DNA from: Rhodanobacter sp. PCA2
GTDB lineage: Bacteria; Pseudomonadota; Gammaproteobacteria; Xanthomonadales; Rhodanobacteraceae
Reading direction: 5' to 3'
Assembly (NCBI RefSeq): GCF_013620825.1
Contig: NZ_NJIC01000044.1
Location: 1 to 35,221 of the forward strand
Length of the DNA stretch: 35,221 bases
The position numbers were made by a program, and so were the translations under genes. Below are positions 6,501-25,073 of this stretch, one piece after another; the first letter of the stretch is position 1, and each line of letters starts with the position of its first letter. Below the pieces are notes generated by a model. That model had not been told where the DNA came from, did no database searches, and saw nothing but the letters and a program-made list of their open reading frames with translations.

Positions 6501-6545
6501 AACCGGACGGCGCGCGGATCGCCCAGCGGCGGCGTCAGCCGCGCG

Positions 6546-10119: not shown

Positions 10120-10123
10120 GCGC

Positions 10124-10149
10124 GCGCGGCGGGCGCATCCCCGCCGCGC
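10124..10149 (+). terminator. Hairpin just after the GH31 stop
   Basis: A perfect 10-bp GC stem (10124-10133 with 10140-10149, loop CGCATC) begins four bases after the GH31 stop codon. There is no T-run, so it may protect the 3' end or act as a weak terminator. Confidence 0.5.
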
Positions 10150-10182
10150 CCCGCCATGCGTATCGCGGCGAACGCGCGACGG

Positions 10183-10211
10183 AAAACGGCGCGGCCCGAG
10201 TGGCCGCGCCC
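10183..10211 (-). terminator. Rho-independent terminator of the RidA-family gene
   Basis: A perfect 9-bp stem (10188-10196 with 10202-10210, loop CGAGT) lies nine bases beyond the RidA stop. On the minus strand it is followed directly by GTTTTCC, as expected for an intrinsic terminator reading leftward. Confidence 0.75.
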
Positions 10212-10219
10212 GACAAACC

Positions 10220-10564
10220 TCAGACCGCCGCGGTCACCACGATCTCGACCTTCCACTCCGGCTTCGCCAGCTTCGCCTCCACCGTGGCGCGCGCCGGGCC
10301 TTGGCCCGGCACCACCCAGGTGTCCCACACGGCGTTCATGCCGGGAAAATCGGCGACGTCGGCGAGGAAGATCTGCGCGCGCAGGATGCGCGTCTTGTCG
10401 CTGCCCGCCTGCGCCAGCAGCGTGTCTATGGCTGCCAGTACCTGCTGCGTCTGCCCAGCGATATCCGCCCCGGCATCCTCGGCCACCTGGCCGGCGAGGT
10501 AGACGATGCCGTTGTGCAGGGTGGCCTCGGACATGCGCGGGCCGGCGTCGATGCGTTGGATCAT
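10220..10564 (-). CDS. RidA/YjgF/UK114-family protein
   Basis: Small trimer-forming protein of the RidA superfamily, 114 aa. RidA itself hydrolyses reactive enamine/imine intermediates from PLP enzymes such as threonine dehydratase; other subgroups have unknown roles. Visible hallmarks: 'NGIVYLAGQVAED', the Arg of 'GPARATVEA' corresponding to the substrate-binding arginine, and the terminal KVEIVVTAAV strand. The sequence looks closer to the Rid subgroup often annotated 'YjgF-like 2' than to archetypal RidA, so imine deaminase activity is only likely. The start at 10564 has GGAG eight bases upstream. Separated from the upstream gluconokinase by its own terminator, so it is probably transcribed alone. 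Confidence 0.87.
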   Translation of the reverse strand: MIQRIDAGPRMSEATLHNGIVYLAGQVAEDAGADIAGQTQQVLAAIDTLLAQAGSDKTRILRAQIFLADVADFPGMNAVWDTWVVPGQGPARATVEAKLAKPEWKVEIVVTAAV

Positions 10565-10587
10565 GCGGGAAGCTCCGTCAGACAAGG

Positions 10588-10613
10588 GAAAAGCGCCGGC
10601 GCGCGTGCCGGCG
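10588..10613 (-). terminator. Rho-independent terminator of the gluconokinase gene
   Basis: A 7-bp perfect GC stem (10594-10600 with 10607-10613, loop GCGCGT) is followed on the minus strand by CTTTTCCC. It sits between the gluconokinase stop and the RidA start, separating the two transcripts. Confidence 0.7.
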
Positions 10614-10693
10614 ACCCACCGGAGCATGGGTCATGCATGCGGCTGCCGGCAAGCGTGCGGCACGCACCGGTCGCCCGGAGACGTCCATTCGCC

Positions 10694-11221
10694 TCAAGGC
10701 CATGACGCCGGCATCGCCAACGCCTGCCTCGCCATCGCCACCGTGGCGGCAAGGTCGATGCCGCCTTCCAGCACCACGGCGTGTTCGTCCGCAGCGGGTT
10801 CCTCCAGCGTCGCCAACTGGCTGTCCAGCAGGCTGGCCGGCATGAAATGGCTGCGCTCGCGCAGGCGGCGCGCGAGTTCCTCGCGCGGCACGCGCAGGTA
10901 GAGCAGGCGCAGCGCCGGGTCGGCCTGGCGCAGCACGTCGCGGTAGCAACGACGCAGCGCCGAGCAGGCCACCACCACGCCGTCGTCGCGCCGCGCCGCG
11001 ATCGCCGCGGCGACGGCCGCCAGCCACGGCTGGCGATCCGCATCGTCCAGCGGAACGCCAGCGCTCATCTTCGCGATGTTCGCGGCGGGATGCAGCGCGT
11101 CGCCTTCCACGAAGCCCACGCCGCAGGCCCGCGCCAGCGCGGCGCCGAGCCGGCTCTTGCCGCTGCCGGACACGCCCATCACCACGATGGTCGGCGGTGC
11201 AGGCATCTGGTGGGTCGGCAA
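10694..11221 (-). CDS. gntK: Gluconokinase
   Basis: ATP:D-gluconate 6-phosphotransferase, cytoplasmic, feeding gluconate into the Entner-Doudoroff and pentose phosphate pathways; 175 aa, normal for the GntK/IdnK family. Walker A is GVSGSGKS (residues 16-23). The family block 'EGDALHPAANIAKMSAGVPL' with 'DDADRQPWL' binds the sugar, and 'VVACSALRRCYRDVLR' carries the conserved CSALK/R-type motif. The start is most likely TTG at 11219-11221, because GCGGAGG lies six bases before it; the first ATG (11206) has no ribosome binding site and would shorten the protein by five residues. A terminator follows the gene. Confidence 0.92.
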   Translation of the reverse strand: MPTHQMPAPPTIVVMGVSGSGKSRLGAALARACGVGFVEGDALHPAANIAKMSAGVPLDDADRQPWLAAVAAAIAARRDDGVVVACSALRRCYRDVLRQADPALRLLYLRVPREELARRLRERSHFMPASLLDSQLATLEEPAADEHAVVLEGGIDLAATVAMARQALAMPASWP

Positions 11222-11355
11222 GATTGGCCTCCGCAACAAGTCATGGGAAACGCGCACTTCCGGCACCGGACAGCTCCGCTGCCGCGGGCCGCCCTTGAGT
11301 ATGCGCGCTTCGCCCAGATTTCATGGGGAACGTCGACTCCCTCGCGCGCGTGCCC

Positions 11356-12111
11356 ATGTTCAACAGGATCAGAAACTGGTACGTGCGGCAGCTGGTCGCC
11401 CGGCGCCCCATCGCCGAACCGCTGTGGCAGGAAGCGTTGCGCCGCTGCGCCCCCGCGCGCAGGCTGGGCGCCACCGACCAGGCCACGCTGCGCGTGCTGG
11501 CCACGCTGTTCCTGGAAAGCAAGTCGCTGGAGCCGGTGCAGGGACTGGACCTCGACGACGCCGGCCGCGTGCTGCTCGCCACCCACGCCTGCCTGCCCAT
11601 ACTGAAACTGGGGCTGGACTGGTACGACGGCTGGCACAGCCTCATCGTCTATCCCGACGCGTTCGTTCCGCACCGCGAGCACACCGACGCCGCCGGCGTG
11701 GTCCACCGCACCGCCGACGCGATGGCCGGCGAGGCCTGGGGGCGCGGGCCGGTGATCGTGTCCTGGGCCGACGTGCTGGATGGCGGAAGGCGATCCGGGC
11801 ACAACGTGGTGGTCCACGAAATGGCGCACAAGCTCGACATGCTCAACGGCGACGCGAACGGCTTCCCGCCGCTGCACCGGCGCATGGACCGCCGCGCCTG
11901 GACCCGCGCCTTCTCCGGCGCGTGGGACCGCCTGCACGAGCAGCAGCGCCACGGCGACGAACTGCCCATCGACCCCTACGCGCTGGAAAGCCCGGCCGAG
12001 TTCTTCGCCGTGGCCAGCGAGCAATTCTTCGAGACCCCCGCCGCGCTGCGCCAGCACCTGCCTGAGGTCTACCGCCTGTTGGAGCAGTTCTACCGGCAGC
12101 ATCCGTACTGA
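11356..12111 (+). CDS. mtfA: M90-family zinc peptidase, MtfA-like
   Basis: Cytosolic zinc metallopeptidase of the MtfA (YeeI) family, about 251 aa. In E. coli MtfA binds the repressor Mlc (DgsA) and thereby affects glucose PTS expression; whether that applies here is unknown. The catalytic HEMAHKLD motif is at 154-161 (H154, E155, H158), and E215 in 'SPAEFFAVASEQFF' is the likely third zinc ligand. The segment 'CLPILKLGLDWYDGWHSLIVY' (residues 79-99) in two halves matches the family. Neither candidate start (ATG 11323 or ATG 11356) has a good ribosome binding site; 11356 agrees better with family N-termini. Confidence 0.88.
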   Translation: MFNRIRNWYVRQLVARRPIAEPLWQEALRRCAPARRLGATDQATLRVLATLFLESKSLEPVQGLDLDDAGRVLLATHACLPILKLGLDWYDGWHSLIVYPDAFVPHREHTDAAGVVHRTADAMAGEAWGRGPVIVSWADVLDGGRRSGHNVVVHEMAHKLDMLNGDANGFPPLHRRMDRRAWTRAFSGAWDRLHEQQRHGDELPIDPYALESPAEFFAVASEQFFETPAALRQHLPEVYRLLEQFYRQHPY

Positions 12112-12177
12112 ACGCACCGGGATCGCGCACGCCCCGGCCGGCCCCGTGAAGTATCCGTGACGCATCTCCCTTGTACC

Positions 12178-12204
12178 TTGCGCGCCATCCGGGACAGGTA
12201 TAGT
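12178..12204 (+). promoter_or_regulatory. Possible promoter for the SPFH cassette
   Basis: TATAGT at 12199-12204 with TTGCGC at 12178-12183 upstream; the 15-base spacer is short. TTGTAC at 12171 is too far (22). It lies 50 bases before the SPFH start in an otherwise GC-rich gap. Weak evidence. Confidence 0.3.
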
Positions 12205-12254
12205 TCGGCTTTCGATGGGCGCCGTGCCCGGCCACGAACAACCAGGGAGATGTC

Positions 12255-13403
12255 ATGGGTCTCATACAGGCAGTCGCGGGTTCGATCGGCGGCACGCTCG
12301 CCGACCAGTGGAAGGATTTCTACACGGTGCCGGCCGGCCTGCCGGCGACGGCGGCGCTGTTCGCCGCGGTGCCCCAGGGCAGCAATGCCGGGCGCGGTTC
12401 CAACACGCACGGTTCGTCCAACATCATCACCAACGGCTCGAAGATCGTGGTGCCCGAAGGCTACGGGCTTCTGCTGTTCCAGGACGGCAGGATCACCGGC
12501 TTCGCCGCCGAGCCGGGCGGCTACGAATGGCGTTCGGACGACCTCAACTCGCAGTCGGTCTTCTCCGGCGGCGGTCTGGTCGATGCGCTGATCAAGCAGA
12601 GCTGGGAGCGCTTCAAGTTCGGCGGCCAGCCGGGCTCGCAGCAGGCGGCGTTCTTCGTCTCGCTGAAGGAGCTGCCGGACAACCGCTTCGGCACGCAGTC
12701 GGAAATCTACTGGGACGACGGCTTCCTCAACACCCAGGTCGGCGCGGTGACGCGCGGCTCCTACACGCTGAAGATCGTCGACCCCATCCTGTTCGTGAAG
12801 AACTTCGTGCCGGCGTCCTACCTGCAGCCCGGCCAGGTGTTCGACTTCACCGACCTCGACAACGCCGCCGCCAGCCAGTTGTTCAACGAAGTGGTGGGTT
12901 CGCTGGCGCCGGCCTTCAGCGCGTACACGAACGACCCCGGCAAGGGCAACCGCATCGCCAAGCTGCAGCAGGATTCGCTGGGCTTCGCGAAGAGCCTGTC
13001 CGACGCGGTGGAACAGGGCTACCAGTGGAAGTCCGACCGCGGCCTCGCCATCGTCAAGACCGCGATCGTGTCGATCGAGTACGACGCGAACACGCGCGAA
13101 CTGCTGAAGAACGTGCAGCGCGCCGACGCGCTGTCCGGCGCGCGCGGCAACTCCAACCTGCAGGCCAGCGTCGCCGCGGGCATGCAGGCAGCGGGCGAGA
13201 ACGGCGGCGCGGCGGGCATGATGGGCATCGGCATGGCCTCCGGCATGATGGGCGGCATCGGCGGCCTGCAGCAGCCGGTGGCGCCGGCCGCGGCGGCGGA
13301 CGACCCGGTCGCCAAGCTGAAGAAGGCCAAGGAGATGCTCGACCTCGGCCTGATCACCCAGGCCGACTACGACGCGCTCAAGACCAAGGCGCTGGGCCTG
13401 TAG
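12255..13403 (+). CDS. SPFH-domain protein with C-terminal SHOCT motif
   Basis: 382-aa protein of the bacterial SPFH ('virion core protein'-like, YdjI-type) group. Residues about 20-250 form the SPFH/band-7-like fold ('KIVVPEGYGLLLFQDGRITG' at the start of it). A Gly/Met/Ala-rich linker (about 315-350) leads to a short C-terminal helix pair 'VAKLKKAKEMLDLGLITQAD', a typical SHOCT oligomerisation motif. No signal peptide or transmembrane helix, so it is probably a membrane-associated or cytosolic scaffold. AGGGAG lies seven bases before the ATG. Followed by a zinc-ribbon gene and a small membrane gene; this combination recurs in bacteria and suggests a shared complex, though its job is unknown. 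Confidence 0.85.
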   Translation: MGLIQAVAGSIGGTLADQWKDFYTVPAGLPATAALFAAVPQGSNAGRGSNTHGSSNIITNGSKIVVPEGYGLLLFQDGRITGFAAEPGGYEWRSDDLNSQSVFSGGGLVDALIKQSWERFKFGGQPGSQQAAFFVSLKELPDNRFGTQSEIYWDDGFLNTQVGAVTRGSYTLKIVDPILFVKNFVPASYLQPGQVFDFTDLDNAAASQLFNEVVGSLAPAFSAYTNDPGKGNRIAKLQQDSLGFAKSLSDAVEQGYQWKSDRGLAIVKTAIVSIEYDANTRELLKNVQRADALSGARGNSNLQASVAAGMQAAGENGGAAGMMGIGMASGMMGGIGGLQQPVAPAAAADDPVAKLKKAKEMLDLGLITQADYDALKTKALGL

Positions 13404-13436
13404 CGAACCTCCCGCCGTCGTCCCGGCGAAGGCCGG

Positions 13437-13583
13437 AGGCGCTTCACAGCAGCGAAGCTGGTCATCCAGTGTCCTTGTTCTCAGCAGCTTGCAGGCACTG
13501 GATGACTCGCTGCGCTCGCCCCTTCGGGGCCGCCCTGCGGGCGTTCTGCGCGCTTTGCGCTTGTCCTGCCTTCGCTGGGATGA
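13437..13583. repeat. Dispersed ~146-bp repeat, copy B
   Basis: Second copy of the repeat at 3501-3646, inserted in the 309-base gap between the SPFH and zinc-ribbon genes. Half-palindromes of the same family flank it: CCCGGCGAAGGCCGGAGG at 13421-13439 and GTCATTCCGGCGAAGGCCGG at 13644-13663. Nothing else is seen in the 13404-13712 gap. Confidence 0.8.
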
Positions 13584-13712
13584 TGTGCAAAATCAGACCA
13601 TCCCTGGCAAAGCTCCGGAAAACCCGCCACGTCATAGCACTGCCGTCATTCCGGCGAAGGCCGGGACGATGGCTTGAACTTCCTTCCTTGAGCCGGTGAT
13701 CCCGCCACGCCC

Positions 13713-15011
13713 ATGTCCAACGCCACCACGCCACCGCCCCTTGGCCCGGGGTCACCGCAGGACGTGCCGCCGCTGCCCGGCAGCTTCCCGATCGACCCGG
13801 CCACCCTGCCCGACCCGATCCGCAAGGAAGTCGAGGCGCCCGACCCGGTCGCCATCGATACCTCCGCCGCCGAACTCAAGGACGGCGTCAACCGCTGCCC
13901 GAAATGCGGCTCCACCGAGATCCGCCAGAAACCCGGCAGCGACATGCTGATCTGCCTGTACTGCCGCCATGAATGGCAGAGCACGCGGGTGGAGGATGAG
14001 TTCGGGCTGGGCGAAGGCATCGACCAGCTCCGCGGCACCGTCGTCGCGTCCGGCGCGCGCGACATCAAGGCCGACACCGCCAGCCTGATGACGTTCAAGT
14101 GCGCCGGCTGCGGCGCCGAGGTCACCGTCAACACCGCGAACGCGATGACCGCGCGCTGCCACTGGTGCCGCAGCGTGCTCGGCGTCAACGAGCAGATACC
14201 GAACGGCGCGGTGCCGGACGCGGTGCTGCCGTTCCACATCAAGAAGGACGACGCCGTCGCGCGCATCCGCCAGTTCGTGGACAAGCGCCGCCTGTTCGCG
14301 CTGAAGGCGTTCAAGGAACAGTTCACGCCGGAGAACGTCGTGGGCGTCTACCTGCCCTACATGATCGTGGACGCCAACGCGGCCGCCGACGTGGGCGGCC
14401 AGGGCGAGATCGAGACGCGCCGCTATACGAGAGGCAGCGGCGACGACAAGAAGACCTACTACGACGCCGACGTGTACCGGGTCGAACGGCACGTCGACTT
14501 CACCGTGGACGACCTGCCGCTGGAATCCTCGCTGGAACGCGGCAACCTCGACACCGGCAGCAACACCAACAATGTCATCAACGCCGTGCTGCCGTTCGAC
14601 ACCAAGAACGCGGTGAAGTGGAACGCCTCCTACCTCGCGGGCATCACCTCGGAAAAACGCGACCGCGACGTGGAAGGCCTGCGCCCGCACCTGGAGGACC
14701 AACTCCTTTCCATCGCCCGCGCCCAGGTCGAAGCCTCGGTCAGCCGCTACGACCGCGGCGTGCGCTGGGAACAGGAACGCCTGGACCTGCGCGGCACCCG
14801 CTGGGTGTCGATGTACCTGCCGGTGTGGCTGTACTCCTACCACCAGCCCGGCCGCAACGGCGGCATGCTGCACTACATCGCCGTGAACGGCCGCACCGGC
14901 AAGACCATGGGCAGCGTGCCCGTGCAGCAGTGGAAACTGCTCGCCACCGCACTCACCGTCGGCACCTTCCTCGAAGGCATCGCACTCTGGCTGGTGGGGC
15001 ACTCGTCATGA
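13713..15011 (+). CDS. TFIIB-type zinc-ribbon membrane-anchored protein
   Basis: 432-aa protein with a Pro-rich N-terminus (1-45) and two zinc ribbons: C62-C65 / C81-C84 (NRCPKCG...ICLYC) and C130-C133 / C149-C152 (KCAGCG...RCHWC). A long middle domain (about 165-400) follows, rich in charged residues with 'VVGVYLPYMIVDANAAADV' and 'YLPVWLYSYH'. A single hydrophobic helix near 408-428 (LLATALTVGTFLEGIALWLV) anchors the C-terminus. Such proteins are sometimes annotated as primosomal-protein-like, without support. Its stop overlaps the next gene (ATGA), showing translational coupling. The upstream SPFH gene is 309 bases away across a repeat. A role in a membrane complex with the SPFH protein is inference. 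Confidence 0.82.
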   Translation: MSNATTPPPLGPGSPQDVPPLPGSFPIDPATLPDPIRKEVEAPDPVAIDTSAAELKDGVNRCPKCGSTEIRQKPGSDMLICLYCRHEWQSTRVEDEFGLGEGIDQLRGTVVASGARDIKADTASLMTFKCAGCGAEVTVNTANAMTARCHWCRSVLGVNEQIPNGAVPDAVLPFHIKKDDAVARIRQFVDKRRLFALKAFKEQFTPENVVGVYLPYMIVDANAAADVGGQGEIETRRYTRGSGDDKKTYYDADVYRVERHVDFTVDDLPLESSLERGNLDTGSNTNNVINAVLPFDTKNAVKWNASYLAGITSEKRDRDVEGLRPHLEDQLLSIARAQVEASVSRYDRGVRWEQERLDLRGTRWVSMYLPVWLYSYHQPGRNGGMLHYIAVNGRTGKTMGSVPVQQWKLLATALTVGTFLEGIALWLVGHSS

Positions 15012-15280
15012 TGAGCGACGACAGCGGACTCTGGTTGCTCGCCCTCGGCCCGGCCGGCGCCACCGCGCTGTACTGGGCCCTGTACCGCTACTACCGCAAC
15101 ACCGACAAATCCCACGACTTCGAACACGAGACGAAGGTCGAGGCCAAGCCGGTCACCGGCTCGGACGGAAAGATCGATGAAGTGATCGGCACGCGGGAGA
15201 CGCGTATTGGCGGGGACAACGTGCATCAGTATCGCAAGCGGGTGCAGCGAACGGGGTCGGAGCGAACGGGGTCAGGTTGA
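15008..15280 (+). CDS. Small single-pass membrane protein, C-terminus rewritten by a REP-like repeat
   Basis: 90-aa protein whose ATG overlaps the preceding stop (ATGA). One membrane helix (about residues 7-24, LWLLALGPAGATALYWAL) is followed by a Tyr/Arg-rich turn and a polar tail (KSHDFEHETKVEAK...). The last twelve residues (VQRTGSERTGSG) are encoded by a tandem 15-bp repeat (15246-15260 and 15261-15275) that is the left end of the neighbouring RAYT element, so the native C-terminus has probably been replaced. No known function; it is the third gene of the SPFH/zinc-ribbon cassette. Confidence 0.65.
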   Translation: MMSDDSGLWLLALGPAGATALYWALYRYYRNTDKSHDFEHETKVEAKPVTGSDGKIDEVIGTRETRIGGDNVHQYRKRVQRTGSERTGSG

Positions 15281-16088
15281 CTTACCGACAAACCCGGACA
15301 CCGCACACCTACGGCGCCCCAAGTCCCGACACGCTACCGCTGCCCTGGCCACACCCCGATGCTCTGAGGATGGCCAGACTTCCCCGACTCGACCTTCCCG
15401 GCATCCCGCAACATATCGTCCAGCGCGGCAATAACCGCCTGCCCTGCTTCCTCGATGACGTCGACCGGCGTCGCTACCTGCATCTGCTGCGCATGGCACT
15501 GCTCGACACGCATTGCGCGCTGCATGGGTACGTGTTGATGGACAACCATGTTCATCTGCTCGCCACACCTCCCGAAGCGGGCGCCATTGCGCGCCTGATG
15601 CAAAAACTTGGACGCTGCTACGTCGCCCAGTTCAACGCCCGCCATCGGCGCACCGGCACCTTGTGGGAAGGCCGCTACAAGGCGTGCCTAGTCGACAGCG
15701 AAAGCTACGTGCTGCAGTGCATGCGGTACATCGACCTCAATCCGGTCCGCGCACGCTTGACCGACGACCCTCTCGCCTACGCCTGGTCCAGCTGTGCCGC
15801 GCATTGCGGCCAACGCGAAGACACGCTGTTGACGCCCCACCCTGCCTACTGCTCCCTCGCCTGCCCAGGCTCGAATCGCACCGACACCTATCGCTGCCTC
15901 GTATATCAGGCCTTGTCCGACGACGACCTCATTGCCATTCGCAGCTACCTCCAGCAACAGCGCGCCCTGGGTCGCGACGATTTCCGCTCCATGGTCGAAG
16001 CCAAGACCCAACGTTTCGCAGGCGTCCGACCGGCTCATCGGCCATCGCGTGGCGCGCACGCGGGTAGAAAGTGAACCTGACCCCGTTC
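15264..16088. mobile_element. RAYT element bounded by inverted 18-bp REP-like ends
   Basis: The left end, 15264-15281 (GAACGGGGTCAGGTTGAC), is the reverse complement of the right end, 16071-16088 (GTGAACCTGACCCCGTTC), with 17 of 18 bases matching. They enclose the transposase gene. The left end is preceded by a second partial copy (15246-15260). This is the layout expected of a REP-associated tyrosine transposase with its recognition hairpins. Confidence 0.72.
15370..16074 (+). CDS. REP-associated tyrosine transposase (RAYT, Y1/HUH family)
   Basis: Single-stranded DNA endonuclease of the TnpA-REP (IS200/IS605-related Y1) family, 234 aa, proposed to mobilise or maintain REP hairpins. The start MARLPRLDLPGIPQHIVQRG is the typical family N-terminus. 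The HUH motif is H60-V-H62 in 'LMDNHVHLLATP'. The nucleophilic tyrosine is probably Y84 in 'GRCYVAQFN'; 'RTGTLWEGRYKA' and 'YIDLNPVRARL' are the conserved downstream blocks. All catalytic residues are present and the frame is intact, so it may be active. An ATG 31 codons upstream (15277) is in frame but lies inside the repeat end. Its final 60 codons are duplicated at 17449-17644. Confidence 0.92.
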   Translation: MARLPRLDLPGIPQHIVQRGNNRLPCFLDDVDRRRYLHLLRMALLDTHCALHGYVLMDNHVHLLATPPEAGAIARLMQKLGRCYVAQFNARHRRTGTLWEGRYKACLVDSESYVLQCMRYIDLNPVRARLTDDPLAYAWSSCAAHCGQREDTLLTPHPAYCSLACPGSNRTDTYRCLVYQALSDDDLIAIRSYLQQQRALGRDDFRSMVEAKTQRFAGVRPAHRPSRGAHAGRK

Positions 16089-16189
16089 TTGGCGAGAACT
16101 TTCGCGCCATCGTCCAGGCCAACGCGCAACGCGGCGCCGGGGCGCCTGTAGCGCATCGCCCATGCACGCGGCGCCGCCGAAAACAGGAG

Positions 16190-16214
16190 GTGAACCTGCC
16201 CTCATCCTGTTCTT
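16190..16214. repeat. Degenerate REP-like copy
   Basis: GTGAACCTGCCCTCATCCTG followed by TTCTT resembles the RAYT right end (16071-16090) with an insertion. It sits in the 235-base gap between the RAYT and the hydrolase gene, where no other gene is seen. Confidence 0.5.
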
Positions 16215-16309
16215 GCGACCTACAAGCTTTCTGAACTTCCAGCACCGCCTCAAGTCGATGAAAGAGCCAGCCCGGCGCCCCTGCCCGGGCCATCGACGGG
16301 AGACATGCC

Positions 16310-17335
16310 TTGAACACGATGCACCTGAAAGCGGGCAGCGCGCTTTTGCTGGTCATGATGTTCGGCCAGGCCCGAGCCACCGAATCCAGCCACGCCGCTG
16401 CGTCGCAACGCGTGCCGGACAGCTATGCGCAGGCGGCGAAGCTGGTCGACATCGGCCATGGCCGCCATCTCAACCTGCGTTGCTCGGGCAGCGGAGCGCA
16501 GACCGTAATACTGGAAGCCGGCGCGATCGCCGATTCCTCCGCATGGTTCAAGGTGCAGCCACGCCTGGCCGCCCATGCACGCGTCTGCGCATACGACCGG
16601 GCCGGCTTCGGCTTCAGCAGCGAAGGGCCGATGCCGCGAGACCTCGATGCCGACGTGTCGGACCTGCACGCACTGATCCAGCGCGCCGGCCTTGCGACCC
16701 CGTTGGTGATGGTGGGGCATTCACTGGGCAGCAACATCGTCCGGCAATACGCGAGCCGCTATCCGGCGGACGTGAGCGCCATGGTGCTGCTCGATCCCCC
16801 CGCGCAGGACATCGGCCGGTTTGCCCCTGGCTGGCAGAAGGACGAGGACGCCCTGTCGGTGCAGCGGTTCGCGTTCATCCAACACTGCGAGGCGGCCGCC
16901 GAAAAGCACGCACTGCCATCCACCGATCCGGAACTGGGCCACTGCCTCGGCGAGGCCGATCCGCACGCCAGCGCCAAGCTCAACGCGGTGAACCGGACCC
17001 TGATGTCGAAGCCGGCGTACTGGCGCACCGTGCTGTCGGTACTCCGGAACAATGTCGAGGTGTTCAAGCAGTCCGTGTCAAAGCAGGAGACGCACGGCGC
17101 CACGCCGCTGATCGTGCTGTCCGCCGCCAACACCTACGCCGATGCGTTGCCGCGCGACCGCAAAGGGCTGGAAGAAGCCCGGGCGCACACGCAGGCGCAG
17201 ATCGTCGCCACCTCCTCCCGCGGCACGCTGGTGCACGTTCCGGATAGCTCGCATGAAATCGAGATCGACCAGCCGGGCGCGGTGGTCAAGGCAGTCGAGC
17301 AAGCGCTGGGGATGGCGCAGCGCGCACCGAAGTAA
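16310..17335 (+). CDS. Secreted alpha/beta-hydrolase
   Basis: Serine hydrolase of the alpha/beta fold, 341 aa, with signal peptide (about 1-23, AGSALLLVMMFGQARA). The nucleophile elbow is GHSLGS (136-141, S138), the oxyanion region follows 'VILEAGAIADSSAWF' and the catalytic histidine is H315 (PDSSHEIEID). The catalytic acid is not clear. The start is probably TTG at 16310, since GGGAG lies eight bases upstream; the next ATG (16319) is too far from it. The substrate is unknown. The gene lies between a complete RAYT and a truncated copy of that RAYT's 3' end, so it may be carried or duplicated with the element. Its base composition is ordinary for the genome. Confidence 0.85.
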   Translation: MNTMHLKAGSALLLVMMFGQARATESSHAAASQRVPDSYAQAAKLVDIGHGRHLNLRCSGSGAQTVILEAGAIADSSAWFKVQPRLAAHARVCAYDRAGFGFSSEGPMPRDLDADVSDLHALIQRAGLATPLVMVGHSLGSNIVRQYASRYPADVSAMVLLDPPAQDIGRFAPGWQKDEDALSVQRFAFIQHCEAAAEKHALPSTDPELGHCLGEADPHASAKLNAVNRTLMSKPAYWRTVLSVLRNNVEVFKQSVSKQETHGATPLIVLSAANTYADALPRDRKGLEEARAHTQAQIVATSSRGTLVHVPDSSHEIEIDQPGAVVKAVEQALGMAQRAPK

Positions 17336-17448
17336 CGTTACCCAGCGCAGTAGATCGTCCGCACGCCTCGTCCAGCAGACGCCTCGCGACGTGGCGCCGG
17401 TAGTTGGCGCCATCCCCGAAACTCAATTCCCTTCGTCCCCTTATGCCG

Positions 17449-17644
17449 TGCCTCGCATATCAGGCCTTGTCCGACGACGACCTCATCGCCATTCGCAGCT
17501 ACCTCCAGCAACAGCGCGCCCTGGGTTGCGACGATTTCCGCTCCATGGTCGAAGCCAAGGCCTAACGTTTCGCAGGCATTCGGCCGGCACATCGGTCGCC
17601 GCGTGGCACGCGCGTGGGCAGAAAGTGAACCCGACCCTGTTCTT
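17449..17644 (+). pseudogene. Truncated second copy of the RAYT 3' end
   Basis: These 196 bases align without gaps to 15895-16090, with 18 mismatches by my count (about 91% identity), nearly all transitions. They keep the last part of the transposase frame (YQALSDDDLIAIRSYLQQQR) and the right-end REP motif. One change turns CAA into TAA, ending the frame early. The rest of the gene is absent. The remaining part of the 17336-17691 gap holds no gene. Confidence 0.88.
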
Positions 17645-17669
17645 AGAAAGTGAACCTGTCCCCGTTTTT
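17645..17669. repeat. REP-like copy at the edge of the AT-rich gene
   Basis: AGAAAGTGAACCTGTCCCCG plus a T-run directly follows the RAYT remnant as a tandem second right-end motif. It is the last GC-rich sequence before the AT-rich GHKL gene. Read leftward it could also serve as part of that gene's 3' end. Confidence 0.6.
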
Positions 17670-17691
17670 TAGACCCCGTTTTTCAACGTGA

Positions 17692-19737
17692 TCACTCATA
17701 TTTTGCGTGCTGCTCCGCCACACCACCCGCCGAATCATTCAAACAGGTAATTAATTCGGATAGAACAATTAAATCCATAACTCGCGCCCCCGACTCAGCA
17801 TCGGTAAGAATGTGAGTCACTCCATGGAACTGTCGCTGATCTACATTTTCGGGAACAAGTAAAGAAGTAATTCCAAACCTACCCACATAATCATCACCCG
17901 TTTCCCACACCACGCAAAGATCAATATCCTTCAGATTCTTTTCCCCCGAATCCGCATCCTCAACCAATCCATCCAGTGAAAACTTATACTCAAGAATCTT
18001 TGGCTGGGAAATAATTCCAGAAAGGGCGGCAGCCGTAGCACCATCCAGGCCCAAAGGATTAGCCTTCACCTCATAGACATACTTTTCAACCGCGAGATCA
18101 AAGCTGACTTTAAACAGGCCATCGTAAGTTGCACGTTCATTCGTAGACATCACGCGCACACCTCGAATGATCCCTCCAGCAATCAGCTGATTAAATAAAG
18201 CAATAACGTCCTGCTCTCGAGTCGGCTTTGACGTAATAGAAATTCGCTCAACGGGAAGGAAAAAATGGGGGCTAATAAGATTTAGCGGCTCCGCATTCTC
18301 ATGTTCTAGCATCTCAGCCTTCCAATTTGCGACCTGCTGCTCCCTCAAAAGATCGGGCGCAACACCCGTGTTTGCCTTAAGCCGATTCTTTACTTTAGCC
18401 AACACAATATCTGTAATTTTTCTCGAAATTTCTTTGGCAAAATCAGTAAGCTCACGATGAAACCCTTTTCGACCCATATCTGGGCTATAGTTGTCAAAAT
18501 GAACCAAGAAATGAATCTGGTTTTGCCTGCCAATATTTCTTGTCAAAGGAATTTGAATTACGTCCCCTTGAGGCATATTGTTAGCAGCAAGCTGAATACC
18601 GCTATTTAAAACTCGATAATTTGCCCTAAGCCCCAATGAGCCATTGAATTTTTGCCAAAGTTTGGCAGTGTAGCCGAATTCAACCGATACATAAGGAGTA
18701 TGCACCTCAAGAATTGCCAAGTCATCCTTATCTAGCTGAATCAGATTTTTAAGCTCATCGTGTGTCCAACTATCAAAAATTACGTCCAGATTACAAATCT
18801 TATCCGGATGTTTGAATCCAGCACCCATTTTTTTGAATAGAGATTCCTCTATGGAAAAAATTTCGCGAATTCTCGCAACTTTTGCACACTCTTTATTTAT
18901 CCAATAATAACCAACCCCTTTATACTCGTTAGAATCGATTATTCCATCTGATTTTTTTACCGTTAAAATTACTTTCAGATCAAAAAATGGTTTTATTGCT
19001 CCCAATCCTGTTTTAATTGATAGTATTTTCCACCAGGCATCAACCTCTGACGCCTGAATCCAATCCAGCCTCTTTGGATGCGTACTTTCGTCAAATTTAA
19101 CCCTAACGCTAACGCCTCTATCCAATCCATAAAAATCCGTCGATGCCAACTCGTCAATTGGCTCTACTTTTGGGTTAGCACTGGGAGCGGGGTCCGAAAG
19201 CCAGCGACGTGCGTTAACGATACGCCCAGACGCCGAGAAAGTCGGCGTCTTCGTACTTACACTCATTGAATTAAAGCCGTAGGCGACATACGTAGCACCA
19301 ACACCTTTATGACCGCGCGCCTGGCCAGATTTAAACGAGAAATTTGGCGCGAGAAACTGCTGGAACTGATCCTTGTCTAAACCAACACCATTATCGGTTA
19401 CAGAGAGTTCATTCCCATAAATATCGATAGTTATCTTTATTATCGGCTGATATTTTTTATTGCCCGCCTCTAACTCCAGTTGTTCGCGAAGCTCAACCGA
19501 GTCTAGTGCGTTCTGTATAAGTTCACAGAAGGGGTCATACCAACCAACGTAGGAACTGAGAATATTTTTTATCTCCCGTTTCAAAGCTTGAAGCGCGGCC
19601 TCTGTGGCTTTATTTGACTTGCATTCCAACGGGTCAAATGCCTCGAATGTCACGTTACCCCCTAATACTTTGAAGTACGAAATTAGCCTGCCGTCACCGG
19701 AAATAATGCTAGGTACATTTATCTTGCCGAATCTCAA
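17692..19737 (-). CDS. GHKL-ATPase protein with C-terminal PD-(D/E)XK-like region; putative defence gene
   Basis: Unrecognised 681-aa protein (653 aa from an alternative start). The N-terminal GHKL (Hsp90/MutL/histidine-kinase type) ATP-binding domain is clear: N-box ELIQNALD (E72, N76), DNGVG (115-119), and a lid GHKGVG (142-147) next to 'NFSFKSGQA'. A middle region (about 200-460) may be a transducer domain. The C-terminus (about 500-665) places E508 (TREQDVIALFNQLI), D539 (YDGLF) and E556-V-K558 in the order and spacing of a PD-(D/E)XK nuclease core; 'ILEYKFSLDGL' and 'IDLCVVWE' follow. The DNA is strikingly AT-rich against all neighbours, indicating horizontal transfer. The longest start is TTG at 19737; GTG at 19653 has AGGGGG four bases upstream and may be the true one. 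An ATP-controlled nuclease in phage defence is inference. Confidence 0.8.
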   Translation of the reverse strand: MRFGKINVPSIISGDGRLISYFKVLGGNVTFEAFDPLECKSNKATEAALQALKREIKNILSSYVGWYDPFCELIQNALDSVELREQLELEAGNKKYQPIIKITIDIYGNELSVTDNGVGLDKDQFQQFLAPNFSFKSGQARGHKGVGATYVAYGFNSMSVSTKTPTFSASGRIVNARRWLSDPAPSANPKVEPIDELASTDFYGLDRGVSVRVKFDESTHPKRLDWIQASEVDAWWKILSIKTGLGAIKPFFDLKVILTVKKSDGIIDSNEYKGVGYYWINKECAKVARIREIFSIEESLFKKMGAGFKHPDKICNLDVIFDSWTHDELKNLIQLDKDDLAILEVHTPYVSVEFGYTAKLWQKFNGSLGLRANYRVLNSGIQLAANNMPQGDVIQIPLTRNIGRQNQIHFLVHFDNYSPDMGRKGFHRELTDFAKEISRKITDIVLAKVKNRLKANTGVAPDLLREQQVANWKAEMLEHENAEPLNLISPHFFLPVERISITSKPTREQDVIALFNQLIAGGIIRGVRVMSTNERATYDGLFKVSFDLAVEKYVYEVKANPLGLDGATAAALSGIISQPKILEYKFSLDGLVEDADSGEKNLKDIDLCVVWETGDDYVGRFGITSLLVPENVDQRQFHGVTHILTDAESGARVMDLIVLSELITCLNDSAGGVAEQHAKYE

Positions 19738-19953
19738 TCAAAGCTTGTAACTACCATCCGCAACAACCTTCGGTCTCTCCGGCCAAACCGGACACAGCGC
19801 CTCCACCGCCTCCATCAACTCCACCCAGTCGGACAGGTCACCCTTTCCCGGCAGCGGCGCCGACGTGACATAGTCCCCGGCCAGTGGCTCGGCCACCCGG
19901 TCAGCATGCGTCGTCGTCGATTTGGGCGAGGAGTTCATCGAGCCATTCCACAC
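19738..19953 (-). CDS. Small hypothetical ORF between the nucleotidyltransferase remnant and the GHKL gene
   Basis: An open frame of 71 codons; the likely start is GTG near 19896, giving about 52 aa (AEPLAGDYVTSAPLPGKG..., then ELMEAVEALCPVWPERP). The 'VEALCPVWPERP' ending resembles small proteins that accompany AbiEii-like nucleotidyltransferases in Xanthomonadales; this is recollection, not a search. Its TGA is directly followed, in the same frame, by the TTG that opens the GHKL frame. Normal GC content, unlike the next gene, so the composition break falls exactly here. Confidence 0.45.
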   Translation of the reverse strand: MWNGSMNSSPKSTTTHADRVAEPLAGDYVTSAPLPGKGDLSDWVELMEAVEALCPVWPERPKVVADGSYKL

Positions 19954-20110
19954 AGTCGAACAAGGCGAAGTATTCGCGTACCTCGGCCATGTTGAGCTTT
20001 CCGTGCTGGGCCCGCAACAACGCGCGGATGTCCTCGATGTCGCGGGTGCGGGAGGGGTTGTTGGCCAGAGCCTGCAGCTTGAAGCCGATCAGGCCTTCGG
20101 CGCCGATCAC
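19901..20110 (-). pseudogene. C-terminal remnant of an AbiEii-like nucleotidyltransferase
   Basis: About 70 codons (GAEGLIGFKLQALANNPSRT, then RDIEDIRALLRAQ, ending EVREYFALFDCVEWLDELL) match the C-terminal part of AbiEii/AbiGii-type nucleotidyltransferases (type IV toxin family). The same frame stays similar for perhaps seven more codons upstream, then is lost near a 24-bp palindrome and the IcmF stop. The catalytic N-terminal domain (GS-x-DxD type) is absent, so the gene is broken. It marks an older accessory locus next to the GHKL gene. Confidence 0.6.
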
Positions 20111-20145
20111 CCGCGGGCAGCCCAGCGCGGTGGCGCGTTCGCCGT

Positions 20146-20169
20146 GTTGCCCGGCACGTGCCGGGCAAC
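20146..20169. terminator. 24-bp perfect palindrome downstream of IcmF
   Basis: Positions 20146-20157 and 20158-20169 are exact reverse complements with no spacer. It begins 12 bases past the IcmF stop codon and could form a terminator-like stem (no T-run) or be a scar at the point where the nucleotidyltransferase gene was truncated. Confidence 0.5.
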
Positions 20170-20181
20170 GCGGCGGGACAC

Positions 20182-23100
20182 TTACATGTTCCGCCGATAC
20201 TCGCCGCCCACATCGTACAGCGCATGGCTGATCTGGCCCAGCGAGTGGGTCTTCACCGCTTCCATCAGCGCGGCGAAGACGTTCTTGCGGTCGCGGGCGG
20301 TGTTTTGGAGGTAGGCGAGGCCGTGGCCCTGGGCGTTGTTGGGGTGCTGCCCTTGGGCTTTGAGGACATGCTGTCCTTCGACTTCGCTCGCCGTTGGCGA
20401 GCTACGCTCTGGACGAACGGAGTCTGCGGGAGCTGCGGCGTCGGTGGAGTCGGTGCCGTGGGCGTGGGAGGTTTCGCCGGCGGGGGCCAGGGCGTTGCGC
20501 GCCTGCTGGAACGCCTGCACGTTGGCGATCTGCTGGCCCTTCTCCTCCTCCGTCGAGCGGATGAGTTCGATCTCGGTGGCGATCTCGCCGCCCTTGTCCT
20601 TGGGCAGGAAGGTGTTGACGCCGATCAGGGGCAGCGAGCCGTCGTGTTTCTTGTGCTCGTAGTACAGGCTTTCTTCCTGGATCTTGCCGCGCTGGTACAT
20701 GGTGTCCATGGCGCCGAGCACGCCGCCGCGCTCGCTGATGGCTTCGAATTCCTTGTACACGGCCTCTTCCACCAGGTCGGTGAGTTCCTCGACCACGTAG
20801 CTGCCCTGCCAGGGGTTTTCGTTGAAGTTGAGGCCGAGTTCCTTGTTGATGATCATCTGGATCGCCACGGCGCGGCGCACGCTTTCCTCGGTGGGCGTGG
20901 TGATGGCTTCGTCGTAGGCGTTGGTGTGCAGGCTGTTGCAGTTGTCGAACAGGGCGTACAGCGCCTGCAGCGTGGTGCGGATGTCGTTGAACTGGATTTC
21001 CTGCGCGTGCAGCGAACGGCCGCTGGTCTGGATGTGGTACTTCATCATCTGGCTGCGCGCGCTGGCGCCGTAGCGCTCGCGCATGGCGCGGGCCCAGATG
21101 CGGCGGGCCACGCGGCCGATCACGGTGTATTCCGGGTCCATGCCGTTGGAGAAGAAGAACGACAGGTTCGGTGCGAAGTCGTCGATCTTCATCCCGCGCG
21201 CGAGGTAGTACTCCACGATGGTGAAGCCGTTGCTCAGCGTGAAGGCGAGCTGGCTGATCGGGTTCGCGCCGGCCTCGGCGATGTGGTAGCCGGAGATGGA
21301 CACCGAGTAGAAATTGCGGACCTTGTGCTCCACGAAGTACTGCTGGATGTCGCCCATCATGCGCAGGGCGAACTCGGTGGAGAAGATGCAGGTGTTCTGC
21401 GCCTGATCCTCCTTGAGGATGTCTGCCTGCACGGTGCCGCGCACGGTGCTGAGCGTCTCGGCCTTGATGCGCGCGTAGGTCTCGTCATCCACCAGCTGGT
21501 TGCCGGTGACGCCGAGCAGGCCGAGGCCCAGGCCTTCGTTGCCCTTGGGCAGTTCGCCGGAATACTGCGGGCGGCCATTCGGATACATCGCGGCGATCTT
21601 CTTTTCCGCCGCGGCCCAGCGCGCGGGGTCCTGCTTTAGGTACTTCTCCACGTTCTGGTCGATCGCGGTGTTCATGAACATCGCGAGGATGATCGGCGCG
21701 GGACCGTTGATGGTCATCGACACCGAGCTGGTGGGCGCGCTGAGGTCGAAGCCGGAGTACAGCTTCTTCATGTCGTCCAGCGTGGCGATGTTGACGCCGG
21801 AGTTGCCGATCTTGCCGTAGATGTCGGGGCGCGGCGCCGGGTCTTCGCCGTACAGCGTGACCGAGTCGAACGCGGTGGACAGGCGCGTGGCCGCACCGCC
21901 CTGGCTCAGGTAATGGAAGCGGCGGTTGGTGCGCTCGGGCGTGCCCTCGCCCGCGAACATGCGGGTGGGGTCCTCGCCGCTGCGGCGGTACGGGTACACG
22001 CCGCCGGTGTAGGGGTAGTGGCCCGGCAGGTTTTCCTTGCCGAGGAACACGAGCTGGTCGCCCCAGCTTTCCGTCTTCGGCGGCGCCACCTTGGGAATCT
22101 TCTGGTGGCTCAACGACTCGCGGTAGTTCTCCACGCGGATGGTCTTGTCGCGCACCTTGTACTCGTTGACCTCCTTGGTCACCGACTCGCGCAACTGCGG
22201 CCAGTCGCGCAGCAGGTGGATGGACTCGTGGCTGAGCTCTTTCAGCGCGGCGTTGTAGCGTTGGCGGAGGAGAAGCAGGGTGCGGTCGACGTGCTGCCCA
22301 TCATTTCGGTTCTGCCCGTCATTCCGGCGAAAGCCGGAATCCAGTGCCTTTGCATTTGAGTCGTGCGCTTCGCGCGAGTTATCCGACTGGATCCCGGCTT
22401 TCGCCGGGATGACGGCGTCATGCAAATCCTCGCCGTGATACAGCTCCAGCGGCTTCGGCAGCTTGTCGTCGCCCAGCTCCTTCAACGACTCGTAGTAATG
22501 CTGCGCCTTGCTCGCCGCCTCGGCCTGGTGGGCGACGGAGGCGTTGATGCCGCGGCCCTGTTCGGCGATCTCCGCAAGGTAGCGCACGCGGCTGCCGGGG
22601 ATCAGCACGGTGGCGCGGGGTTCCTTCAGCGAGGTGTCGACGCTGGGCGCCCACTTCTCCGTGGGCAGGTGCAGCTTGTCGCGCATCAGCCGGCACAGGT
22701 TCGCGAACATCCAGGTGACGCCGGGGTCGTTGAACTGGCTGGCGATGGTGGGGTACACCGGCACGTCCTCGTCCTTCACGGCGAACGCGGTGTGGTTGCG
22801 CTTCCACTGCTTGCGCACGTCGCGCAGCGCGTCCTCGGCGCCGCGGCGGTCGAACTTGTTCAGCACCACCAGGTCGGCGAAGTCGATCATGTCGATCTTC
22901 TCCAGCTGGCTGGCCGCGCCGTAGTCGCTGGTCATCACGTAGACCGGGAAATCCACCAGGTCGACGATCTCGGAATCGCTCTGGCCGATGCCGGCGGTTT
23001 CCACGATCACCAGGTCGTAGGGCTGCGCCTTGAGGAAGTCGATGCAGTCGTGCAGCACCTCGTTGGTGGCGGCGTGCTGGCGGCGCGTGGCCATGGATCG

Positions 23101-23913
23101 CATGTAGACGCGATGGCTGCGCAGCGCGTTCATGCGGATGCGGTCGCCCAGCAGCGCACCGCCCGAACGGCGGCGGGTGGGATCGATGGCGAGCACGGCG
23201 ATGCGCATCTGCGGGAATGCGTGCAGGAAACGCAGCAGCAGTTCGTCCACCACGCTGGACTTGCCCGCGCCGCCGGTGCCGGTGAGGCCGAGCACGGGCG
23301 TGGCCTTGCCGGCCAGCTTCCACTGCTTGCGCAGGTGGTCGAGGTCGGTGGCGGAGAGCTTGCGCTCCTCGATCGCGGAGAGCATGTGGCCGATGGATAT
23401 CTCGTCGTCCACGCTCACCTTCGACGCGGCGGTGTCGGGCGCGCGCTGCGCGGCGGCGTTGCCGGCGCGCTTCATCACGTCCTCGATCATCTCGGTGAGG
23501 CCGAGCTTCATGCCGTCGTTCGGGTGGTAGATGCGCTCCACGCCATAGGCCTGCAGCTCGCGGATTTCCTCCGGCGTGATGGTGCCGCCGCCGCCGCCGA
23601 ACACGCGGATGTGGGCGGCGCCCTTCTCCTTCAGCATGTCCACCATGTACTTGAAGTACTCGACGTGGCCGCCCTGGTAGGACGACAGCGCGATGGCGTC
23701 GGCGTCCTCCTGCAGCGCGGCGCGCACCACGTCCTCCACCGAGCGGTTGTGGCCCAGGTGGATCACCTCGGCGCCCTGGCTCTGGATGATGCGGCGCATG
23801 ATGTTGATCGCCGCGTCGTGGCCGTCGAACAGGCTGGCCGCGGTGACGAAGCGCAGCGGGGTGGCCTCGGCCTGGGGGGAGCCGACGGGAACATGCTTGG
23901 CGGGGGAACTCAT
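20182..23913 (-). CDS. icmF: Fused isobutyryl-CoA mutase/GTPase IcmF, with two repeat-derived insertions
   Basis: Adenosylcobalamin-dependent carbon-skeleton mutase with built-in G-protein chaperone, interconverting isobutyryl-CoA and n-butyryl-CoA (some IcmFs also act on isovaleryl-CoA). Domain order: B12-binding domain about 20-150 ([16 protein letters not shown]), MeaI-like GTPase about 200-420 (P-loop GTGGAGKSS), linker, substrate-binding mutase domain about 600-1243 ([14 protein letters not shown]; ends [18 protein letters not shown]). At 1243 aa it is longer than the roughly 1,090-1,100 usual. The excess is explained by a palindromic element encoded in frame at residues 499-541 and a second insertion around 1150-1190, both in loops. 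The frame is intact, so the protein is probably functional. GGAG lies five bases before the ATG. Chromosomal neighbours give no pathway partners. Confidence 0.93.
20373..20414. repeat. Palindromic repeat inside icmF (C-terminal insertion)
   Basis: A 42-base inverted repeat: outer GTCC/GGAC, inner GCTCGCC-GTT-equivalent arms around a three-base loop. On the coding strand it reads as SVRPERSS...ASEVEGQ, a peptide I associate with dispersed palindromic repeats. It lies in a stretch (residues about 1150-1190) that IcmF proteins normally lack. Confidence 0.65.
22317..22414. repeat. Palindromic element inserted in frame in icmF
   Basis: Arms of 29 bases (22317-22345 and 22386-22414) are reverse complements with two mismatches, around a 40-base loop. 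Translated, it begins VIPAKAGIQ and ends SGFRRNDG, the well-known coding signature of this repeat type. It is 98 bases long and, with flanking bases, keeps the icmF frame open. Half-units of the family occur at 3630-3646, 13421-13439, 13570-13583 and 13644-13663. Confidence 0.85.
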
Positions 23914-24230
23914 GGCGACTCCGGCATCGTGTGCGATAGCTGGTCGATTCTAGTCGGGATCGATGTCCGGGGCTTGCTGCAGCGCGGATACCCATGCGTA
24001 TGGAAGCGCGGATTCCCGGCGAAAACCGGCGTCGCGGGCGACTCACGCACGCCACGGTTTGCCGGCATACTGGCGGCCGAAGATGCGGCGCCCCGCAGGC
24101 GCCCATCGGGGGACCATCCACGAATGGCGCCGAAGGCCGCGCGGCAACTGCCACGCGCAGGCAGCGGACCGCCCTCGCCTGCCGCCCGGGATGGACACGC
24201 TGCTACGCAAAGGAATGAAGGAACGCACGC
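23914..24230. other. 317-base divergent gap, nothing specific seen
   Basis: This gap separates the divergent starts of icmF and the TonB-domain gene and must hold both promoters. No convincing -35/-10 pair, operator or small gene could be picked out. A diverged half of the palindromic repeat (GGATTCCCGGCGAAAACCGG, near 24011) is present. Confidence 0.35.
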
Positions 24231-25073
24231 ATGAAGAAGGTCTTGTTCGGCGCGACCCTGGCGATGGCGACGATGGTCGCCCAGGCCGGCAACCTCCGGG
24301 ACGTCGAATCCTCCGCCCTGGTCCAGGGCAGCCTCGTGCTGGCCCCGGATGGCACGGTGCGGGACGCGACGATCACCGACCCCGCCAAGTACGGCCAGGC
24401 CATCTCCGACATGGTGCGCAAGGCCGTGCTGCAGTGGCGCTTCCAACCCGTGCTGCTGGATGGCGCGCCGGTGATCGCCAAAAGCAGCATGCGGGTGCGC
24501 GTGGTACTGAAGAAAAACCCCGACGGCAACTACACCGCGCGCATCAAGGGCGCCACCTTCGGCGACGACGATCCGGGCGACACCGGGGTGCTGCATGCAG
24601 CCGAGGCGAACAAGAAGCTCTATCCACACTATCCCGAGGCGGCGATCCGCGCCCGCGTGCAGGGCACGGTGTACCTGGCGCTGCACGTGGACCGCAACGG
24701 CCGGGTGACCGACGCCGTGGCCGAGCAGGTCAACCTGGACAATACCGGCACCGACCTCGCGCTCAAGCGGTACCGCGAGGTGCTGGCGAAGTCGGCGCTG
24801 GACGTGGCGCGCACGTGGACCTACCGGGTCCCCACCACCGGCAAGCTCGCCGGGCAGGACAGTTGGACCGTGCATCTGCCGGTCAGGTATTACCTCAACA
24901 CGCTGGGTGAGCCGCCGCGTGACCACACCTGGGAAACCTATGTCCCCGGCCCGTACACGCGGGCTCCCTGGGTGGACAAGCCCGACGTGAATGCCGCCGA
25001 CGCCCTCGCCGATGGCGCCGTGCAGACCGACGGCGCGGGCCCGGTGCTGCTGTCTCCGCTCAACCACGGTTGA
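24231..25073 (+). CDS. TonB-domain (energy-transducer-like) periplasmic protein
   Basis: 280-aa exported protein with signal peptide MKKVLFGATLAMATMVAQAG. Two TonB C-terminal-like repeats can be seen. The first (about 28-95) reads 'QGSLVLAPDGTVRDATITDP' and 'QWRFQPVLLDG'; the second (about 130-225) reads 'YPEAAIRARVQGTVYLALHV', then 'DRNGRVTDAVAEQVN' and 'ARTWTYRVP'. Unlike TonB proper it has no retained N-terminal anchor or Pro-rich spacer, so it likely does not couple ExbBD to receptors. Such standalone TonB-domain proteins are common in Xanthomonadales and their role is unclear. A GGA-containing purine stretch precedes the ATG. Confidence 0.78.
   Translation: MKKVLFGATLAMATMVAQAGNLRDVESSALVQGSLVLAPDGTVRDATITDPAKYGQAISDMVRKAVLQWRFQPVLLDGAPVIAKSSMRVRVVLKKNPDGNYTARIKGATFGDDDPGDTGVLHAAEANKKLYPHYPEAAIRARVQGTVYLALHVDRNGRVTDAVAEQVNLDNTGTDLALKRYREVLAKSALDVARTWTYRVPTTGKLAGQDSWTVHLPVRYYLNTLGEPPRDHTWETYVPGPYTRAPWVDKPDVNAADALADGAVQTDGAGPVLLSPLNHG

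Follow-up and report, generated by a model that had tools for sequence, protein, structure and literature searches.

What does a long AT-rich gene encode, and why does it lie at the 3' end of mcm, in Rhodanobacter sp. PCA2? The window examined here is the whole stretch of DNA analysed, positions 1 to 35,221 of contig NZ_NJIC01000044.1 (35,221 nucleotides). A sequence-only reading had proposed that this gene, a GHKL ATPase fused to a PD-(D/E)XK-like C-terminus, is a single-gene defence system encoding an ATP-gated clamp nuclease. That remains the best-supported reading, although the catalytic pair first proposed, E556/K558, was the wrong one. The gene was probably acquired by horizontal transfer and works in defence on its own; its product would be a DNA clamp that is gated by ATP and carries a nuclease, and the family to which it belongs most likely protects cells against phages or plasmids.

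The open frame runs from 17692 to 19737 and comprises 681 codons from a TTG, as originally reported; its strand, now added, is minus. This start is probably too early and the protein is probably 653 amino acids long, because the N-termini of full-length relatives line up with about residue 29 in the 681-codon frame and a GTG at 19653 is preceded by AGGGGGTAAC. Residue numbers below are those of the 681-residue frame unless marked otherwise; subtracting 28 converts them to the 653-residue numbering. The AT-rich composition noted from the start is borne out: guanine-plus-cytosine (GC) content is 43.2% versus 68.0% for the window, and GC content at third codon positions is 0.41 versus 0.92 for the neighbouring mcm gene. 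The gene and its parts are as follows.

17692..19653, minus strand: coding region of the protein with GHKL ATPase, middle and nuclease-like domains, 653 amino acids, GTG start
19658..19663, minus strand: AGGGGG, upstream of the GTG and likely its ribosome-binding site
19084..19602, minus strand: GHKL ATPase domain, about residues 18-190 of 653 (limits approximate, from predicted secondary structure)
Within the GHKL domain, minus strand: motifs E44/N48/D51, D87-N-G-V-G and G114-H-K-G-V-G (653-residue numbering)
18382..19056, minus strand: middle S5/transducer-like domain, about residues 200-424 of 653 (from Foldseek alignments, limits approximate)
Within the middle domain, minus strand: conserved stretch M360, Q362, G363, Q377, D392, G394, R395, K396 (653-residue numbering)
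17695..18372, minus strand: C-terminal PD-(D/E)XK-like domain, residues 428-653 of 653
18214..18216, minus strand: codon of E508 (E480 of 653), invariant in the 69-row alignment
18121..18123, minus strand: codon of D539 (D511 of 653), invariant in the 69-row alignment
17983..17991, minus strand: codons of E583-Y-K585 (E555-Y-K557 of 653), E and K invariant in the 69-row alignment

The N-terminal region carries the motifs of the GHKL ATPase superfamily: the N box (E..N..D), G1 (DxGxG) and G2 (GxKGxG). The stretches first picked out as such, ELIQNALD (72-79), DNGVG (115-119) and GHKGVG (142-147), are complete, and E72, N76, D79, D115, G117, G142, K144, G145 and G147 are invariant in 69/69 rows of a family alignment, with G119 present in 68. 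This alignment, in which the identical L010 and L012 are both counted, leaves out second or near-copies (L001, L008, L081, L082), frames shorter than 620 amino acids that are fragments, split or at contig ends (L027, L054, L063, L066, L072, L073, L074, L079, L083), and L006 and L007; the 63-row alignments A3 and A6 leave out L005, L010, L021, L024, L064 and L084. By sequence, similarity to Hsp90/HtpG and topoisomerase VI is weak and sub-threshold. Pfam gave sub-threshold HATPase_c matches only, NCBIfam sub-threshold matches to HSP90-family, sacsin-type and topoisomerase VI B models, and PHROGs two weak matches in the ATPase region, while no known defence system model in PADLOC-DB 2.0.0 was matched beyond TmtA (E 0.011, within the ATPase). 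A 63-row profile of the family matched three known proteins within the ATPase: HtpG at E 1.6e-4, endoplasmin at 6.5e-4 and topoisomerase VI B at 0.0096. By predicted fold, the similarity is clear. The AlphaFold2 model of the whole protein, built from 63 rows (predicted local distance difference test score, pLDDT, 88.7; predicted template modelling score, pTM, 0.68), had 632 Foldseek matches in the PDB at E <= 0.001. The best 50 of the 632 are Hsp90-family, GyrB and topoisomerase VI chains, with alignments of 424-648 columns that reach the middle domain at E 1.1e-11 or lower and template modelling scores of only 0.22-0.39 over the query. These alignments place an S5/transducer-type domain after the GHKL domain, the arrangement of the GHKL + S5 group.

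The C-terminal domain is the part on which the predicted nuclease function turns. The PD-(D/E)XK core has the order helix-strand-strand(D)-strand(ExK)-helix-strand. E508, D539, E583 and K585 are invariant in 69/69 rows (68 different), as are K600, W611, R635, G639, T641 and H642; the E-to-D spacing is 31 in 63/63 rows of A6, and the D-to-E spacing 39-50. This conservation was not built in by the genome search that gathered the family, because the search patterns (SYVG[WT]YDP and [HN]KGVGATY) lie in the ATPase. Modelled alone with AlphaFold2 (residues 428-653 of the 653-residue numbering; pLDDT 92.1, pTM 0.90), the domain runs from a helix starting at E508 through a strand, D539 and a second strand, a strand bearing E583-x-K585, a helix and a final strand. 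The conserved E, D and E-x-K are thus predicted to fall in the helix-strand-strand-strand-helix-strand order, and the restriction-endonuclease fold has been described with E-D-ExK motifs (PMC2292703). E508, first placed in a helix, opens a predicted one; D539, which had been assigned to a strand, lies just before a predicted strand. The proposed catalytic pair E556-V-K558 is ruled out, since position 556 is E in 5/69 rows and position 558 is K in 5/69; the invariant E-x-K is E583-Y-K585, 27 residues further on.

The same signature can be followed into more distant proteins. A Lactiplantibacillus homologue (P0003), about 20% identical to P0001, aligns with the family profile over 489 columns (E 1.7e-21). 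It retains an E, YD and LEFK but lacks most of the D-to-ExK stretch; its match to the C-terminal profile alone is weak (probability 33%). A Priestia protein (P0006), placed by eye and by a partial match to P0003, reads YDLL...VIEFK by eye. Both are nearer the usual spacing, because most of the D-to-E-x-K stretch is missing from each. A Halobacterium plasmid relative (L006:9989-11980) consists of two frames and is probably inactive because it is split; its second piece, in which E, YD and E-F-K are retained, matches the C-terminal profile (E 1.2e-13). No C-terminal domain joined to another N-terminus was found in 398 genomes, where the two matches were the gene itself and one in a 660-codon frame.

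The family is rare, widely scattered, patchy and mobile, with copies on plasmids and in prophages. A scan of a collection of 84,980 species yielded 70 loci, a lower bound because it relied on the two short ATPase peptide patterns given above. A maximum-likelihood tree of the 69 rows spans bacteria and archaea in ten phyla. On it, the Pseudomonadota rows need 10 changes and the Bacteroidota rows 4, with labels more clustered than in shuffles; this departure from phylum lines suits transfer, although a count above one does not in itself prove transfer. Among 369 genomes of the host's class, four had a match, namely the gene itself and three ATPase-only matches, and within the host genus the family occurs in 1 of 15 genomes. 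Searches by tblastn found relatives in four plasmid records and no match in phage records. In viral contigs, a single sequence found two relatives, and a four-row alignment found six loci, two of them in the same records. The two relatives lie on contigs with a recognisable terminase: in L009 it is up to 73% identical to those of deposited phages, and the gene sits between lysis genes and an antitermination gene (both recognised by eye), and in L010 the terminase match is weak (22.5%).

In its own genome, the gene lies at the 3' end of mcm, between mcm and transposase sequences.

20182..23913, minus strand: mcm-like gene, encoding a methylmalonyl-CoA mutase fused to MeaB and B12-binding domains, right border of the variable site
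15277..16074, plus strand: IS200-like transposase gene (Y1_Tnp, E 4.4e-12), which we take to be of the REP-associated (repetitive extragenic palindrome) type
17450..17682, plus strand: extra copy of the IS200-like transposase gene's 3' end, bordering the AT-rich gene on the left

The extra copy had been called a transposase remnant from the letters, and it is indeed a copy of the 3' end, because 15265-16091 and 17450-17682 match overlapping parts of the one transposase gene of a relative. A further remnant at about 19903-20160 (minus strand), first noted as a broken AbiEii-like gene, was read by eye as the C-terminus of an AbiEii-type nucleotidyltransferase, and a GC-rich palindrome at about 20140-20175 adjoins it.

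Beside mcm, DNA homology between the window and the relatives compared stops at 20180-20184. At this flank, eight of ten genus relatives (L129-L136) have different open frames of low GC content (0.42-0.57) in the direction of mcm, and the other two (L128, L138) have a cargo-free flank. Of the four genus genomes outside this count, G753 and G757 gave no proper mcm match, and G766 and G767 were left out. Low-GC genes also adjoin the mcm end in L137, from another family of the order. In L136, the same hydrolase gene (88%), a like transposase gene (71%) and mcm recur with another AT-rich gene between them. Among the cargo, L133 carries a DRT5 reverse transcriptase (PADLOC E 1.5e-204) and L132 a cluster resembling a restriction-modification (R-M) system, with type II methyltransferase (E 2e-90), DpdB-like (9.4e-18) and DrmA-like (5.4e-17) frames; of 10 cargo proteins from five of the eight genomes, PADLOC matched four. 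The mcm 3' end is likely a site of defence-gene exchange across the genus and, as such, a place to seek further defence genes in it. Two other occupants of the site are long proteins. One, of 1034 amino acids (L131:3005-6109, minus strand), has an Hsp90-like ATPase region at about residues 350-520, an HD-type motif near its start by eye, and no PADLOC match. The other, of 1146 amino acids (L130:2505-5945, minus strand), has by eye a SIR2-like start and a later P-loop, and found no match in PADLOC or among PDB sequences.

These features suggest how the protein might work. In MutL, Hsp90 and topoisomerase VI, ATP binding leads to dimerisation through the GHKL domains, and two subunits of this protein may bind ATP and dimerise in the same way. 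The S5-like middle domains would then shut around DNA, and closure or ATP hydrolysis could be signalled through the Q...DxGRK stretch of the middle domain. Such a signal would license the paired C-terminal PD-(D/E)XK-like domains, with E508, D539, E583 and K585 as putative catalytic residues, and invading DNA would be cut.

The same architecture could instead serve an abortive effector, in which the ATPase senses phage activity and the nuclease, instead of cutting incoming DNA directly, destroys host DNA or RNA so that growth stops. In the WonAB system, the activity of WonB, a PD-(D/E)XK protein, halts growth, and the authors suggest rRNA or tRNA as its target (PMC12137116); genes lacking a linked methyltransferase are compatible with such a role. 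However, VcSduA, a GHKL-type Shedu protein and the most similar layout to have been tested, gave protection at every multiplicity of infection tried, which its authors read as direct action on the phage (PMC12137116), and MutL and topoisomerases use GHKL plus S5 modules as DNA-handling engines (PMC2292703). An abortive role is considered unlikely.

Gene neighbourhoods bear on whether the protein works alone. Neighbours were taken as open frames of at least 100 amino acids chosen by a simple rule, which is crude in GC-rich genomes. The upstream neighbour is at least 50 bases away in 70/74 loci and the downstream one in 59/67; a co-directional neighbour less than 50 bases off occurs in 7/77. No common partner emerged among the 138 nearest neighbours, the top Pfam family occurring in three. 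The counts over 77 loci leave out L001-L004, L007, L008, L010, L081 and L082. Within the locus stretches (mean 18.7 kb), home-made profiles built from these loci found Dcm in 7/77 and Vsr in 6/77, and Pfam confirmed all six Vsr and each of the four Dcm put to it. With labels that are our own assignment, 13/77 loci also held a tyrosine-integrase-like gene, four a serine-recombinase-like gene and six a superfamily 2 (SF2)-like helicase gene. As a yardstick, among 94 whole genomes from the host's class, Dcm was found in 22 (20 over the cut-off) and Vsr in 10, a rough comparison because the yardstick covers one class, two loci came from the plasmid search and the profiles are home-made.

This partial linkage is what might lead one to regard the protein as part of an R-M system, in a restriction or accessory role, with a methyltransferase gene that is linked to it in certain genomes and unlinked in the rest, as proposed for MORC and paraMORC. 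Dcm or Vsr genes are near it in the minority of loci counted above, with Dcm coming next in the gene lists of L006 and L052; a Rhizobium plasmid copy has Dcm, Vsr and a DUF2357 gene within 6 kb, the Halobacterium copy adjoins a C5 methyltransferase, and the host genome has one Dcm and one Vsr match, both on contig C10. Such a subunit is nonetheless rather improbable: 70/77 loci lack Dcm in the locus stretch, the most frequent Pfam family accounts for just three of the 138 nearest neighbours, and no methyltransferase was recognised among the frames of window positions 13000-25000, the only part inspected. On C10 (G000, about 3235-12686), the Vsr match and the C5-methyltransferase match lie about 8 kb apart, in what is possibly a separate defence island. 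As for a clamp nuclease of MutL type serving DNA repair or housekeeping, GHKL-nuclease pairing does serve mismatch repair too, and a non-R-M role was considered for stand-alone paraMORC3 genes (Iyer et al.; PMC2292703), but this is highly improbable for a gene found in one of the 15 genus genomes, of AT-rich foreign composition, occurring on plasmids and viral contigs and lying at a variable site. For the preferred reading, a stand-alone clamp nuclease against invading DNA, the mark of the target is likelier to be a feature of the invader, such as ends, topology or modification, than a linked methylation mark, because most relatives have no cytosine methyltransferase nearby.

Several results weigh against that reading. 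Foldseek searches with the C-terminal model gave 260 matches in the PDB and 218 in BFVD (E <= 10 for the PDB), none reaching E <= 0.001 in either. The nuclease assignment therefore rests on the motif, the order of elements and their invariance, and the structure prediction first suggested as a check agrees in element order, with no solved PD-(D/E)XK structure matched by Foldseek. The 63 C-terminal domains weakly matched 16 Pfam families, none of them PD-(D/E)XK; the commonest was SAD/SRA (6/63, best E 0.042), and one row matched Exo_endo_phos2 (E 0.046). A C-terminal profile gave no alignment with 12 DUF4263 domains. Among neighbours, the 70 loci without Dcm count here as well, and six of the ten sister-genome cargo proteins scanned had no PADLOC match. 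A survey of neighbouring defence genes, also suggested at the outset, did find PADLOC families near the gene: 135 families were matched by the 138 nearest neighbours and 103 by 125 more distant ones. Defence genes thus occur in both sets, both of which may lie in islands, and an excess near the gene is not measurable because the scans list families, not proteins with a match. The weak SAD/SRA matches raised a separate candidate, a 5-methylcytosine-binding SRA domain with a YDG motif. They cover 31-35 residues in the three rows detailed and were dropped as a resemblance confined to that stretch, given the invariance of all four residues E508, D539, E583 and K585 and a predicted element order that agrees with PD-(D/E)XK; SRA was judged here from Pfam matches, and a sample of 200 genomes contained just one with SRA.

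How, then, does this family compare with known systems? MutL, Hsp90, GyrB and topoisomerase VI B share its GHKL domain and S5/transducer fold; they are not known to carry a comparable PD-(D/E)XK-like domain at the C-terminus. Prokaryotic MORC proteins share the GHKL and S5 domains and a partial linkage to Dcm and Vsr genes. However, the MORC motif GhXhhpXXRhl occurs in 0/63 rows (0.004 per sequence after shuffling), by a regular expression that would miss a diverged motif, and an SF2-type helicase resembling the ones seen in three loci occurs in 6/77, compared with about 70% of MORC genes (PMC2292703). MORC membership is rejected on the motif as searched by that expression. The Lactiplantibacillus and Priestia proteins are distant homologues with a common layout and the E-YD-ExK order.

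The gene was at first left unmatched to any named system, and it does remain so in Pfam, PADLOC, NCBIfam and PHROGs; its layout, however, had already been published. In 2008, Iyer, Abhiman and Aravind described paraMORC3 as GHKL, S5 and a C-terminal restriction-endonuclease-fold domain with E-D-ExK, patchy and laterally mobile, with a subset of stand-alone genes lacking conserved neighbours (PMC2292703). The present family resembles that published description, against which it was compared, in its GHKL, S5 and C-terminal E-D-ExK parts and its patchy, stand-alone occurrence. In 2025, VcSduA, the GHKL-type Shedu (type I-D) of Vibrio cholerae, was reported to stop phages and to need E27 of the ATPase and K557 of the nuclease (PMC12137116). 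It, too, is a single gene with a GHKL ATPase, a middle clamp and a C-terminal PD-(D/E)xK nuclease, but its nuclease is DUF4263 (PF14082), compared here through other DUF4263 proteins, not VcSduA's own sequence. PF14082 was listed for 0/63 C-terminal domains at E <= 5 and had no match in the host genome. The GHKL+DUF4263 type, which the authors of VcSduA relate to paraMORC3 (PMC12137116), was represented by alignment A8, six proteins from one PF14082 match (L100) and its plasmid relatives, and aligns with the family profile only in the ATPase, over 124 columns in and just after its core. With no DUF4263 nuclease domain by Pfam or profile comparison, Shedu (SduA) membership is rejected. The layout is thus shared with VcSduA and paraMORC3, and because the DUF4263 comparisons are negative, the nuclease is not detectably of the same family as that of VcSduA.

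Literature searches confined to open-licence PMC papers turned up VcSduA and the MORC/paraMORC work but, among the listings and passages covered, no comparable GHKL-nuclease family lacking DUF4263; the papers covered also included PMC8011034, PMC7824862, PMC13092281 and PMC13373217. The chances seem about even that these proteins form a distinct single-gene immune family of bacteria and archaea, joining a gyrase/Hsp90-type ATP clamp to a nuclease of the PD-(D/E)XK kind that is not close to DUF4263. If so, a compact, broadly distributed defence enzyme would join a class in which one tested example, VcSduA, was found, and such clamps could restrict DNA without a linked methylation mark. The gating of a nuclease by an ATP clamp, and the discrimination of self from invader without a partner methyltransferase, would become testable. 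Set beside paraMORC3 and VcSduA, the family would imply that the combination of clamp and nuclease arose more than once in immunity.

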